The translations under genes and the position numbers were made by a program. From Parahaliea maris (GTDB lineage Bacteria; Pseudomonadota; Gammaproteobacteria; Pseudomonadales; Halieaceae): a DNA stretch of 64,000 bases. Where the stretch lies: contig NZ_VRZA01000003.1 in NCBI RefSeq assembly GCF_008064665.1, positions 372,001 through 436,000 on the forward strand. The letters are read 5' to 3'. Of the stretch, positions 11,098 through 13,364 are shown in pieces. The notes beneath the pieces were generated by a model, which was not told the DNA's origin, ran no database searches, and was given only the letters and a program-made list of their open reading frames with translations. Positions within the stretch are counted from its first letter, which is position 1, and every line of letters starts with the position of its first letter.

Positions 11098-11826
11098 TCA
11101 GGCGCCGACAGCCTGCGGGGCGTCCTGCTCGTCGGGGGCCTCTCGCAGGTAGGTGAAACCACCTTCCTTGATGTAGAGCTCGCAGTACTCATTGCTGGTG
11201 GGAGTGAGTGAACCCCCGGCGGGAATCCGCAGCCAGCAGTGGGTGCCGTAGGTACCCTGCGCGTCGGCGAAGCTGCCCTTGAGTACAAACAGCTCTGCAC
11301 CGCGGGGGAAGTTGACTTGCCCCAGATCGCCAGGGCAGTCCCAGGCTTCCAGCCGCATGAAGTCGGTGTAGGGCTCCTGGGCGTAGAGTTTCTTCCACTG
11401 GGAATTGCGACGCACCGAGGGCTGCCAGGGGCGGTCGAGGGTCTGGATGGCCACCTTGTCGCGGTCGGCGCCGGGGTACTGGCGCAATTTCACCAACAGG
11501 GTACAACCCTCCTTCGACCACGGTGCGTGCCGGAAGCCCTCGGGATTGAGCAGATAGCTACCGGCGGGCCAGTCGCCCTGTTCATCGGAAAACACGCCCT
11601 CCAGGACCAGGATTTCCTCGCCCTGGGGGTGGTCGTGGCTGGGGAAGCGGGCGCCGGGTTCGTAGCGCACTACGGAGGTGACCTGCCCGGATTCGGCGGG
11701 GCCGACCCGGTGCACGCGCCTGCGCCAGACCTCCGCGCCGGGGCTTGCGCTCCAGGGCATGCTCTGTGTATCGACGACCACGCGCTTGCTGAGGTCGCCA
11801 TTGATGGCTTGGTTTTCGTCTGTCAT
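11098..11826 (-). CDS. double cupin protein, ChrR-like
   Basis: A 242-residue protein with two tandem cupin folds of the ChrR cupin-like group. The first carries a full metal motif: HDHPQGEEILVLEG followed by FRHAPW. The second (about 140-230) has PRGAELFVLKGSFAD and lacks the HxH pair, so it is probably structural. There is no anti-sigma zinc domain before the cupins, so it is not a complete ChrR. It may be a small dioxygenase or sensor of organic or reactive compounds. Function not assigned. Confidence 0.75.
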   Translation of the reverse strand: MTDENQAINGDLSKRVVVDTQSMPWSASPGAEVWRRRVHRVGPAESGQVTSVVRYEPGARFPSHDHPQGEEILVLEGVFSDEQGDWPAGSYLLNPEGFRHAPWSKEGCTLLVKLRQYPGADRDKVAIQTLDRPWQPSVRRNSQWKKLYAQEPYTDFMRLEAWDCPGDLGQVNFPRGAELFVLKGSFADAQGTYGTHCWLRIPAGGSLTPTSNEYCELYIKEGGFTYLREAPDEQDAPQAVGA

Positions 11827-11971
11827 TGCGGGATTAACCTGTTGGGGCCGGGTCTTGTGCCCGGCTGATGGTATTTGGACTCTGGTGGGGCGGGGTGGTT
11901 CCCCTCGTTGAATATCAGGATAGCTTCGTAGGATGATCTCGACTAGTGCGTTCTTTGTGGTCGGGTAGCGG

Positions 11972-12080
11972 TGCGATCACCGGGTGACCTTTCCCGGACA
12001 CGCCGTGAATCCATCCATGGAGGCTTCACTGCGACATCCTTGTCGCAGAGAGTCCGGGAAAGGTCACCCGGCAATCACAC
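11972..12080 (+). repeat. structured palindromic repeat, copy 1
   Basis: Outer arms are 19 bp and perfectly complementary (11981-11999 and 12052-12070), extending with a few mismatches to about 29 bp. Inside are two small hairpins: TCCATCCATGGA (12010-12021) and an 8-bp stem with loop TCCT (12029-12048). The inner core reads GTGAAT-CATCCATG-GCTT-CATCC-AGAGTC in outline and is shared with copy 2 in the opposite orientation. It looks like a three-way structured element. Confidence 0.8.
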
Positions 12081-12170
12081 CTTCGCCCAAAACTTCGCGA
12101 CTTCTGCCGGAGTTCCTCGCAAGCAGCCCGTTGTATGAGTTTCTGACGCTGGAATTGAGTCCAAATTGAA

Positions 12171-12282
12171 GTCGTGGCGTGTGGAGGGCCTGCGACAGAC
12201 TCTATGAGGCATGGATGCCGAGTAGAAGCGTACATGGATGTATTCACAGCGGGTCTGGCGCAGGCCCTCCACATGACACGAC
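12171..12282 (-). repeat. structured palindromic repeat, copy 2 (inverted)
   Basis: Outer arms at 12180-12194 and 12259-12273 are a perfect 15-bp match. They extend inward by CAGAC/GTCTG after one mismatch and outward to about 24 bp. Inner hairpins are GGCATGGATGCC (12208-12219) and TACATGGATGTA (12231-12242). Read on the minus strand, the core aligns with copy 1 base for base over most of its length, while the outer arms have a wholly different sequence that still pairs. Confidence 0.8.
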
Positions 12283-12361
12283 GCCACCAAACCTGAAAAA
12301 TGGTGATTCATGATGGAATAACACGAAGTGAGAAACCGTTGGGTTTTTAGACTTCACGCTA

Positions 12362-12389
12362 TTGCCGTTAAAACACTTTGGGTTATTCT
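12362..12389 (+). promoter_or_regulatory. possible sigma-70 promoter, leaderless start
   Basis: TTGCCG (12362-12367) and TATTCT (12384-12389) are separated by 16 bases. The predicted transcription start falls on or next to ATG 12396, and no Shine-Dalgarno sequence precedes that ATG, so the message may be leaderless. Motif matches are modest. Confidence 0.3.
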
Positions 12390-12395
12390 CAAAGC

Positions 12396-13364
12396 ATGAA
12401 CAAAAAAGTTTTCGTGACCCATCAGCTTCCCGGTGAGCGCATTCACGAGCTCGCCGAATTGTGCGACCTCAACCTGTGGATGGGGCCCGGACTGCTGCCG
12501 CCCGAGGAATTGCGGGAAGAACTGGAAGACTGCCACGGCCTGCTCTGCCTGCTTACCGATCGCCTCGATAGCAGCGTCATTGCAGGTGCGGAGCATCTGG
12601 AGTTTGTCTCCAGCATGTCCGTCGGAGTCGACCATATCGACGTCAATGCCATGAGCGCCCGCGGCATACCCGTGGGGAACACCCCGGGCGTACTGGTAGA
12701 TACCACCGCCGACACCGCCTTCGCCCTGTTGCTCGCCGCCGCGCGCCGGGTGGGCGAGGCAGACCGTTTCGTGCGCCAGGGCAACTGGCGCGAAGAGAAT
12801 GCCTGGGCACCGGACTTCTTTACCGGCAAGGACGTCAGTGGCGCCACCCTGGGGATTGTCGGGCTGGGGGCGATTGGTCAGGCTGTGGCGAAGCGGGCCC
12901 AGGGTTTCGGCATGGAAGTGCTCGGCTGGTCCCGCAGCGGGCGTGACGTACCCGGGGTCAACAGTGTGTCGCTGGATGAATTGTTATTGCGCAGCGATTT
13001 CGTCAGCGTGCATACCGCGCTGGTGCCGGAAACCCGGCATATGCTCGACGCCGAGCGAATCGCGAGCATGAAACCGGGTGCGGTGCTGGTCAATGCCGCC
13101 CGGGGCGGCATTGTCGATGAGGTCGCACTGGCGGAGGCGCTGGTGCGTGGCCACCTCTACGCCGCCGGGATCGACGTATTCGAGCGCGAACCCCTGCCCG
13201 CGGACAACCCTCTGCTGCATCTGCCCAACGTGGTGCTGACGCCACACATCGGTAGCGCGACCACCATCACCCGGGCACGGATGGCGGACCTGGCAGTGGG
13301 AAATATCATCGCTGCACTGGGCGGCGAGCCCATGCCCCACTGTGTGAATCCCGCCGTTTACTAG
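12396..13364 (+). CDS. D-2-hydroxyacid dehydrogenase (glyoxylate reductase-like)
   Basis: A 322-residue NAD(P)-dependent D-isomer-specific 2-hydroxyacid dehydrogenase, closest in form to glyoxylate/hydroxypyruvate reductases. It shows SVGVDHID, the dinucleotide loop GLGAIGQAVAKRA, NAARGGIVDE with the catalytic Arg, and the C-terminal PHIGSAT containing the catalytic His. ATG 12396 (MNKKVFVTHQ) fits the family N terminus better than the upstream TTG at 12378. It would reduce glyoxylate or hydroxypyruvate to the hydroxyacid in the cytoplasm. Substrate choice is family-based. Confidence 0.85.
   Translation: MNKKVFVTHQLPGERIHELAELCDLNLWMGPGLLPPEELREELEDCHGLLCLLTDRLDSSVIAGAEHLEFVSSMSVGVDHIDVNAMSARGIPVGNTPGVLVDTTADTAFALLLAAARRVGEADRFVRQGNWREENAWAPDFFTGKDVSGATLGIVGLGAIGQAVAKRAQGFGMEVLGWSRSGRDVPGVNSVSLDELLLRSDFVSVHTALVPETRHMLDAERIASMKPGAVLVNAARGGIVDEVALAEALVRGHLYAAGIDVFEREPLPADNPLLHLPNVVLTPHIGSATTITRARMADLAVGNIIAALGGEPMPHCVNPAVY

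Follow-up and report, generated by a model that had tools for sequence, protein, structure and literature searches.

The stretch of DNA considered here, referred to below as the window, covers 64,000 nucleotides of the Parahaliea maris genome. Between two open reading frames (11098..11826 on the minus strand and 12378..13364 on the plus strand, the latter recognized by eye and, we take it, a D-2-hydroxyacid dehydrogenase), it carries a pair of structured elements from which both frames read away. Element 1 occupies 11970..12081 and element 2 occupies 12171..12282, with an 89-nt spacer (12082..12170) separating them. Each consists of a 52-nt core containing two small hairpins, enclosed by outer arms that pair with one another: 11970..11999 with 12052..12081 in element 1, and 12171..12200 with 12253..12282 in element 2. 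The strand whose hairpin loops read GGA is the minus strand for element 1 and the plus strand for element 2. On that strand, element 1 carries the loop AUGGAU in hairpin 1 (12010..12021, with column conservation) and AAGGAU in hairpin 2 (12029..12048), while element 2 carries AUGGAU in hairpin 2 (12208..12219), followed by hairpin 1 (12231..12242, UACAUGGAUGUA). AUGGAU is found in three of the four loops, AAGGAU in the fourth, and ANGGA in all four. Directly beyond the arms lie a GTAG (11965..11968, plus strand) at element 1 and a GTGG (12284..12287, minus strand) at element 2, which resemble the tags of REP elements and are treated as a lead only.

A sequence-only reading of the window had described two repeats with different stems but one shared structure, and much of that description stands. 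The opposite orientation of the elements was borne out, an alignment of their inner cores spans 61 nt at 75%, and the paired hairpin changes that it listed (TCCAT/ATGGA versus TACAT/ATGTA and GACA/TGTC versus GGCA/TGCC) are present. The arms of the two elements are indeed unrelated in sequence, and the 19 to 21 bp of pairing ascribed to them holds for unbroken runs, but the full stems are longer, pairing over about 30 nt with 29 Watson-Crick pairs and 5 mismatches in each element. The shared structure was also correctly seen, but the constrained strand proves to be the opposite of the one first read. Whichever strand is folded, and whether as RNA or as DNA, z-scores for the two elements lie between -7.3 and -12.4, and none of 200 shuffles folded as well. 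On the GGA strand of element 1, both small hairpins appear in the minimum-energy RNA fold. Counting against the structure, the corresponding fold of element 2 does not contain the two together, and its centroid has one.

How common are such elements? A 23-base pattern drawn from the core matches twice in the window, versus no match in any of 100 shuffles, and is found at 38 places in the genome (4.85 Mb in 23 contigs), where the reversed pattern has no match. A covariance model, R1, was built from 37 gapless copies, namely, those of the first 50 copies that have the 52-nt core; because all are of that shape and come from this one genome, R1 matches lean toward it. The model finds element 1 at 11976-12075 and element 2 at 12177-12276 (on the minus strand, as its TCC sense) and gives 103 matches in the genome, or 102 copies at 60 loci once one opposite-strand duplicate is removed. 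The possibility that only the two window copies exist, which the sequence-only reading had named as telling against itself, is therefore excluded, and the covariance-model search that it envisaged has produced about 100 copies in this genome, together with matches in relatives.

The arrangement of the copies is strikingly regular. When a pair is defined as two copies no more than 600 bp apart, 42 of the 60 loci are paired and 18 are single, the latter divided into 9 plus and 9 minus in the TCC sense. Every one of the 42 pairs reads plus, then minus in that sense, so that the GGA strands point outwards. Spacing falls between 75 and 88 nt in 18 of the 42, and 14 of these closely spaced pairs, judged by eye, have an arm of one related type at the first end and of a second type at the opposite end; they look like an amplified form. 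Each copy has a private outer stem of about 30 bp around its two-hairpin core, and 100 copies from this genome include 100 distinct arm pairs and 92 distinct cores; given the latter number, the cores are variations on recurrent types, not exact duplicates. Some GGA loops are extended, judged by eye, by 20 to 24 nt that could form a small hairpin of their own, with GGA still present (L011:1472-1595, L080:1501-1623, L085:1687-1810, and L123:1722-1869); this insert is similar between copies and occurs in either hairpin.

Beyond this genome, R1 has matches in 33 of 58 relatives and in 45 of 274 genomes of the class (few candidates being scored per genome), with the window's own genome included in both counts. 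RF01731, the Rfam family discussed below, matches 14 of the 58 relatives, 10 of them above its cut-off, and none of 14 control genomes. The bare core pattern was found in at least 120 stretches of a collection of species genomes, mostly from Gammaproteobacteria among the matches listed, which include Marinobacter, Methylotuvimicrobium, Arenimonas, and Saccharospirillum. Three of the loci with the pattern (L227, L234, and L236) come from metagenome-assembled genomes (MAGs) labelled Klebsiella pneumoniae, which are possibly mislabelled or misbinned. A Saccharophagus MAG has four tandem copies about 180 bp apart that all face in one direction (L192:3100-3760), unlike the inverted pairs found elsewhere.

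Individual sites are occupied in some relatives and empty in others. At the window site, two genomes of the same genus, G001 and G002, have the same neighboring genes and neither element, and no stem in the corresponding gaps exceeds 8 bp. At 13 further loci, G002 is occupied at 6 and G001 at none, with one of the G001 loci giving a partial match (16 bits, E 0.41). Where the sites could be worked out, G001 also lacks about 10 to 170 bp beyond the unit, leaving no exact insertion ends. Next to serS, the window's genome has the element, as do G002 and G004, and G001 lacks it; since a tree of this one gene nests G001 inside that clade, the absence is most simply a loss. Units, arms included, are therefore gained and lost. 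G001 keeps only 2 copies, and at one of these sites its first element is a remnant, so the copies are not essential. Copy numbers also differ within another genus, where G013 has 5 and G035 has 0. Loss of the RNA-binding regulator CsrA was considered as the cause of copy loss and rejected, as CsrA is found in 54 of the 58 relatives, G001 included, whether or not they carry copies.

Is the structure itself maintained? In the 37 gapless copies, standard pairs fill 85.8% of 1,517 pair cells, versus 62.2% after shuffling (none of 500 shuffles being as high), and sliding the partner by 1 to 3 columns lowers the figure to 31 to 44%. Further pair types in the same alignment show no excess (69 versus 72.8 in shuffles). 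By eye, model position 25 (an A or T; position 12000 of the window in element 1) covaries with positions at the base of hairpin 2, in the combinations ACAC/CTCC/GAAG and ACTC/CTTC/GACG, which suggests a contact beyond the simple stems.

The exceptions to pairing reveal a strand. Over 888 arm cells, the 37 copies have A.C, C.T, and C.C mismatches and not a single G.T, G.A, G.G, A.A, or T.T. An extended count of 100 copies, with two loci left out and 25 opposite-strand duplicates dropped, gave 2,077 Watson-Crick pairs in 2,400 cells, and the same asymmetry: A.C 121 versus G.T 2, C.C 61 versus G.G 1, and C.T 130 versus A.G 2, along with 2 A.A and 4 T.T. Read on the complementary GGA strand, the frequent mismatches are G.U, G.A, and G.G. 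The bias recurs, more weakly (A.C 147 versus G.T 30), in 98 copies taken from other records (to judge by their titles, mostly Gammaproteobacteria), several of them from one genome; R1, being trained on the window's genome, may slightly favor it there. These copies come from an R1 scan of 80 of the at least 120 bare-pattern stretches plus two viral loci, which returned 111 matches, less one duplicate and 12 truncated copies. Three stem positions also behave in a nearly all-or-none way across the 100 copies, being Watson-Crick in 45, fully open in 34 (mostly GNA/GGA), and mixed in 21, and the triplets adjoining them are fully paired in 79 to 96 of the 100. The cores are also one sided: on the GGA strand, 99 of 100 have at least two GGA and 83 have at least two ANGGA, and only 3 have two or more GGA on the opposite strand. 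The mismatch asymmetry and the all-or-none triplet therefore argue that it is the GGA strand that appears to be constrained, as a folded single strand. Is that strand RNA or DNA? G.T mismatches are also tolerated in single-stranded DNA, so such pairs alone are not decisive; RNA is most likely, since the elements resemble an RNA family that is already known.

How do the elements change at one and the same site? Orthologous elements were chosen by flanking synteny among 28 loci of G002 and 2 of G001, giving 28 pairs of elements (26 with G002 and 2 with G001). Of their 671 arm pairs, 449 are identical in the two genomes, 81 differ on one side only, and 141 differ on both sides, versus 49 two-sided changes expected. 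When only the 15 of 28 with clearly related arms (identity of about 75% or more) are considered, the figures are 284, 44, and 32, versus 8.1 two-sided changes expected. In 27 of these 32, both genomes have a Watson-Crick pair, and 19 of the 27 are GC/AT exchanges, which can be reached via a G.U step on the GGA strand. The 44 one-sided changes left A.C alone in 17 and G.T alone in 1. The proposal of the sequence-only reading that the structure is selected, as RNA or DNA, draws support from these compensatory changes and from the strand asymmetry of the mismatches.

The cores behave differently from the arms. In 20 of 26 comparisons, the core is less similar to its ortholog than to the best paralog in each of the two genomes, and it is more similar to the ortholog than to both in just 1; the arms are closest to their ortholog in 13 of 26. 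One clear case is L012/L144, with 98% identity in the arms but cores of different subtypes (0.58 by column and 0.48 by matching blocks), and L015/L133, L024/L123, and L080/L129 are others. As counterexamples, L017/L128 and L025/L145 have conserved both arms and core. Arms have diverged as well (below 75% identity) in 13 of the 28 ortholog pairs, so some sites have changed as a whole. At several shared sites, cores have turned over while the arms persisted.

What known family do these elements resemble? At gathering thresholds, Rfam has nothing in the window, and matches to MIR918, Ysr224, mir-296, and mir-642, all far under the cut-offs of those families, were rejected as long-hairpin artifacts. 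The family TwoAYGGAY (RF01731) matches the GGA strand of both elements, with 38.4 bits on the minus strand for element 1 and 26.7 bits on the plus strand for element 2, both below the cut-off of 43. Six matches are found in the genome, and two sister copies exceed the cut-off (44.5 and 44.2 bits); the window copies would belong to the family only through homology to these sisters. A published description of TwoAYGGAY gives it AYGGAY-type loops on two hairpins, tandem G.A pairs, and an external stem of low conservation, with CsrA binding put forward as a hypothesis (PMC4333381). It has been recorded for the human gut, gamma-Proteobacteria, and Clostridiales and judged probably an RNA and probably not cis-regulatory (PMC2864571). 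Along with the matches on the GGA strand, the window elements share with it the hairpins with AYGGAY-type loops within an external stem (here, of about 30 nt) that is poorly conserved. The tandem G.A pairs (TC facing TC, or GA facing GA on the GGA strand; columns 56-57 with 70-71) occur in 23 of 37 copies, including element 2, with the remainder mostly Watson-Crick, as in element 1. The elements differ from the family as described in those sources in their high copy number (roughly 100 per genome), in pairs that face outward, in stems private to each copy, in the turnover of their cores, and in copies borne between terminal inverted repeats. In the accessible literature on the motif, mostly from non-subscription journals, no mention of a dispersed-repeat or paired arrangement was found.

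The connection to CsrA comes from several sides. TwoAYGGAY belongs to the same Rfam clan (CL00106) as CsrB, and the high-affinity target of RsmA/CsrA is ACARGGAUGU (PMC3937308), of which hairpin 1 of element 2, ACAUGGAUGU, matches 9 of 10 letters. The genome encodes one CsrA (a single PF02599 match). CsrA-titrating small RNAs of the CsrB/RsmZ type likewise present hairpins with GGA loops, in addition to sharing the clan in the case of CsrB. Those, however, are single genes with many sites, whereas the elements described here are dispersed repeats with two sites each. Judging from sequence, CsrA binding is most likely their function.

Are the copies transcribed? Near the window pair there is one weak promoter-like site (9 of 12 positions, 0.2 expected), and none was found in the spacer. 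Gene orientation, determined for 58 of the 60 loci with a home-made open reading frame score, places 25 of the 42 pairs where genes converge and 2, including the window pair, where they diverge; for background, the single 64-kb window has 31 gaps of 30 nt or more, of which 5 are convergent, and the p-values of this comparison treat copies as independent. In the flanks of L019, L020, and L029, an ordinary intrinsic terminator seems by eye to stand between the gene and the unit, which puts some units in apparently untranscribed space. With units so often located between convergent genes and some beyond a terminator, transcription is not obvious, though we infer it for functional copies. In a differential RNA-seq study of Alcanivorax dieselolei, a strain that may lack copies, 11 of 549 small RNAs were in Rfam families, and the accessible text does not name TwoAYGGAY among them (PMC9788540).

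What evidence is there for mobility? In the genome G092, the element sits within a unit of about 209 bp that has sharp ends and is bounded by 19-bp terminal inverted repeats (CTAAATACGTGTTCCGAAT), which match perfectly in several copies. Seven of these units are 84 to 99% identical, and the genome has 123 repeat ends when up to 3 mismatches are allowed. Two of 22 units read are without a core (102 and 115 bp) and look like deletion derivatives. A larger unit of about 365 bp in G124 has inverted repeats of about 32 nt, judged by eye. At L339-L346 of that genome, also by eye, the center of the unit is found in both orientations relative to the flanks, and the flanks contain another hairpin whose loop is of the same type, GGTGCATGGATGCACC. 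The G092 unit, with its inverted repeats and many repeat ends, resembles a MITE, as do the occupied and empty sites among relatives. The window's genome differs in that no terminal inverted repeat or target duplication was recognized around its copies. Nor was an autonomous partner found: in G034, three regions with facing elements 0.7 to 2.6 kb apart hold ordinary-looking genes (by eye), and no inverted repeat pair around a transposase was recognized among the places listed in G092. Transposition, in whatever form, would be our proposed route of spread. Carriage by other replicons was also considered and rejected. Two units from this genome have no match in plasmids and the G092 unit has only short, weak ones (best E, 2); one unit from this genome has no match in phages; and of two viral contigs matched by the bare pattern, neither has an R1 match at an E of 1e-4 or less.

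Could the elements instead act as DNA? On such a reading, they would be giant REP-like mobile elements whose folded GGA single strand is recognized by a transposase or structure-binding protein, with no need for transcription. REPs are known as intergenic palindromes in many copies, often arranged as inverted dimers or heterodimers, with GT pairing and a GTRG tag (PMC3733652). These traits, with the tag as a tentative one, link elements of the REP, BIME, and REPIN kind to the elements here, whose inverted pairs and intergenic location match those of REP dimers, and the terminal repeats in G092 also speak for mobile DNA. Of 100 copies, 42, including both window copies, have a GTRG tag close to the end of an arm, versus 7 of 100 in a control interval, though the tagged copies, by eye, are partly one amplified subfamily and make up less than half of the total. 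G.T, G.A, and G.G are the most stable mismatches in DNA as well as the ones favored here. Yet stems in GTAG REPs are 5 to 13 bp (PMC3733652), compared with about 30 bp capped by two hairpins in these elements, and the GGA loops and tandem G.A pairs match a known RNA family. The Y1 transposase that drives REPs (RAYT, PF01797) has no match in the genome, while 5 of 14 control genomes do have one, and a RAYT-driven REP was rejected on this ground. We consider the wider DNA-level reading possible but doubtful. Less probable still is that the pairs serve the neighboring mRNAs as bidirectional terminators or 3'-end stabilizers, in favor of which stands their excess between convergent genes (25 of 42, versus 5 of 31 gaps). 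No T run follows the arms in the copies examined by eye, some loci already have an ordinary terminator ahead of the unit, and genes converging on a pair would read the near element in its non-constrained sense. Moreover, the window pair itself lies between divergent genes, and 16 single copies have no clear orientation preference relative to genes.

The remaining alternatives concern the origin of the pairing. The sequence-only reading had offered, besides selection, a mobile core that inserts at the center of existing palindromes, and the turnover at L012/L144, where nearly identical arms surround cores that are about 50 to 60% similar at the same site, is what one would look for. The part of the idea that survives is that cores differ while arms persist at several shared sites. 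As stated, however, it is not supported, because relatives without the window copy are also without a palindrome: both core and arms are missing from the window site in G001 and G002, and no stem in the gaps of the 13 G001 sites exceeds 16 bp. In addition, stems in the copies examined are paired over about 30 nt and carry element-specific features, and the two core-less units of G092 look derived by deletion. We regard insertion into ready-made palindromes as the most improbable of the readings weighed here. Only marginally better placed, and very unlikely in our view, is the absence of selection altogether, with template-switch correction of quasi-palindromes during replication keeping the arms complementary. 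In its favor, two-sided changes are common between orthologs. But such a process should favor neither strand of the element, yet the residual mismatches are strongly asymmetric, and 19 of the 27 two-sided Watson-Crick changes are exchanges open to a G.U step on the GGA strand.

The reading that we prefer, with moderate confidence, is that the window elements are a TwoAYGGAY-type structured RNA element, resembling a CsrA site, that spreads as a dispersed repeat, mostly in outward-facing pairs, and whose hairpins are predicted CsrA sites. On the GGA strand, each copy can form an outer stem of about 30 bp that ends in two hairpins, whose loops read GGA (in most cases ANGGA); loops of this kind are what CsrA/RsmA recognizes. 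Selection would keep the fold and not the sequence of the stem, which could for that reason drift, largely through G.U steps. Whole units come and go at intergenic sites, in many cases where genes converge, and the cores are replaced from copy to copy even where the arms persist. When a copy is transcribed, its two hairpins would most likely bind one CsrA dimer, and the copies would then serve either as local CsrA sites or, collectively, as a distributed sponge. A bolder extension, which is speculative and rather unlikely, would make TwoAYGGAY the head of a widespread class of selfish repeats in which RNA or a folded DNA strand is functional. A core cassette bounded by GGAC/GTCC would be exchanged by a structure-directed process, the private stem would be kept, and the two CsrA sites would tap or tune the host regulator.

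Why does this matter? TwoAYGGAY has been a candidate RNA family without a known function since 2010, and here it is encountered as a high-copy, paired, mobile-like repeat, which changes how matches to RF01731 are read. The copies offer many natural variants for testing CsrA binding. Finally, because the stem and the core follow separate evolutionary courses, structural selection can be measured independently of exchange among the copies.
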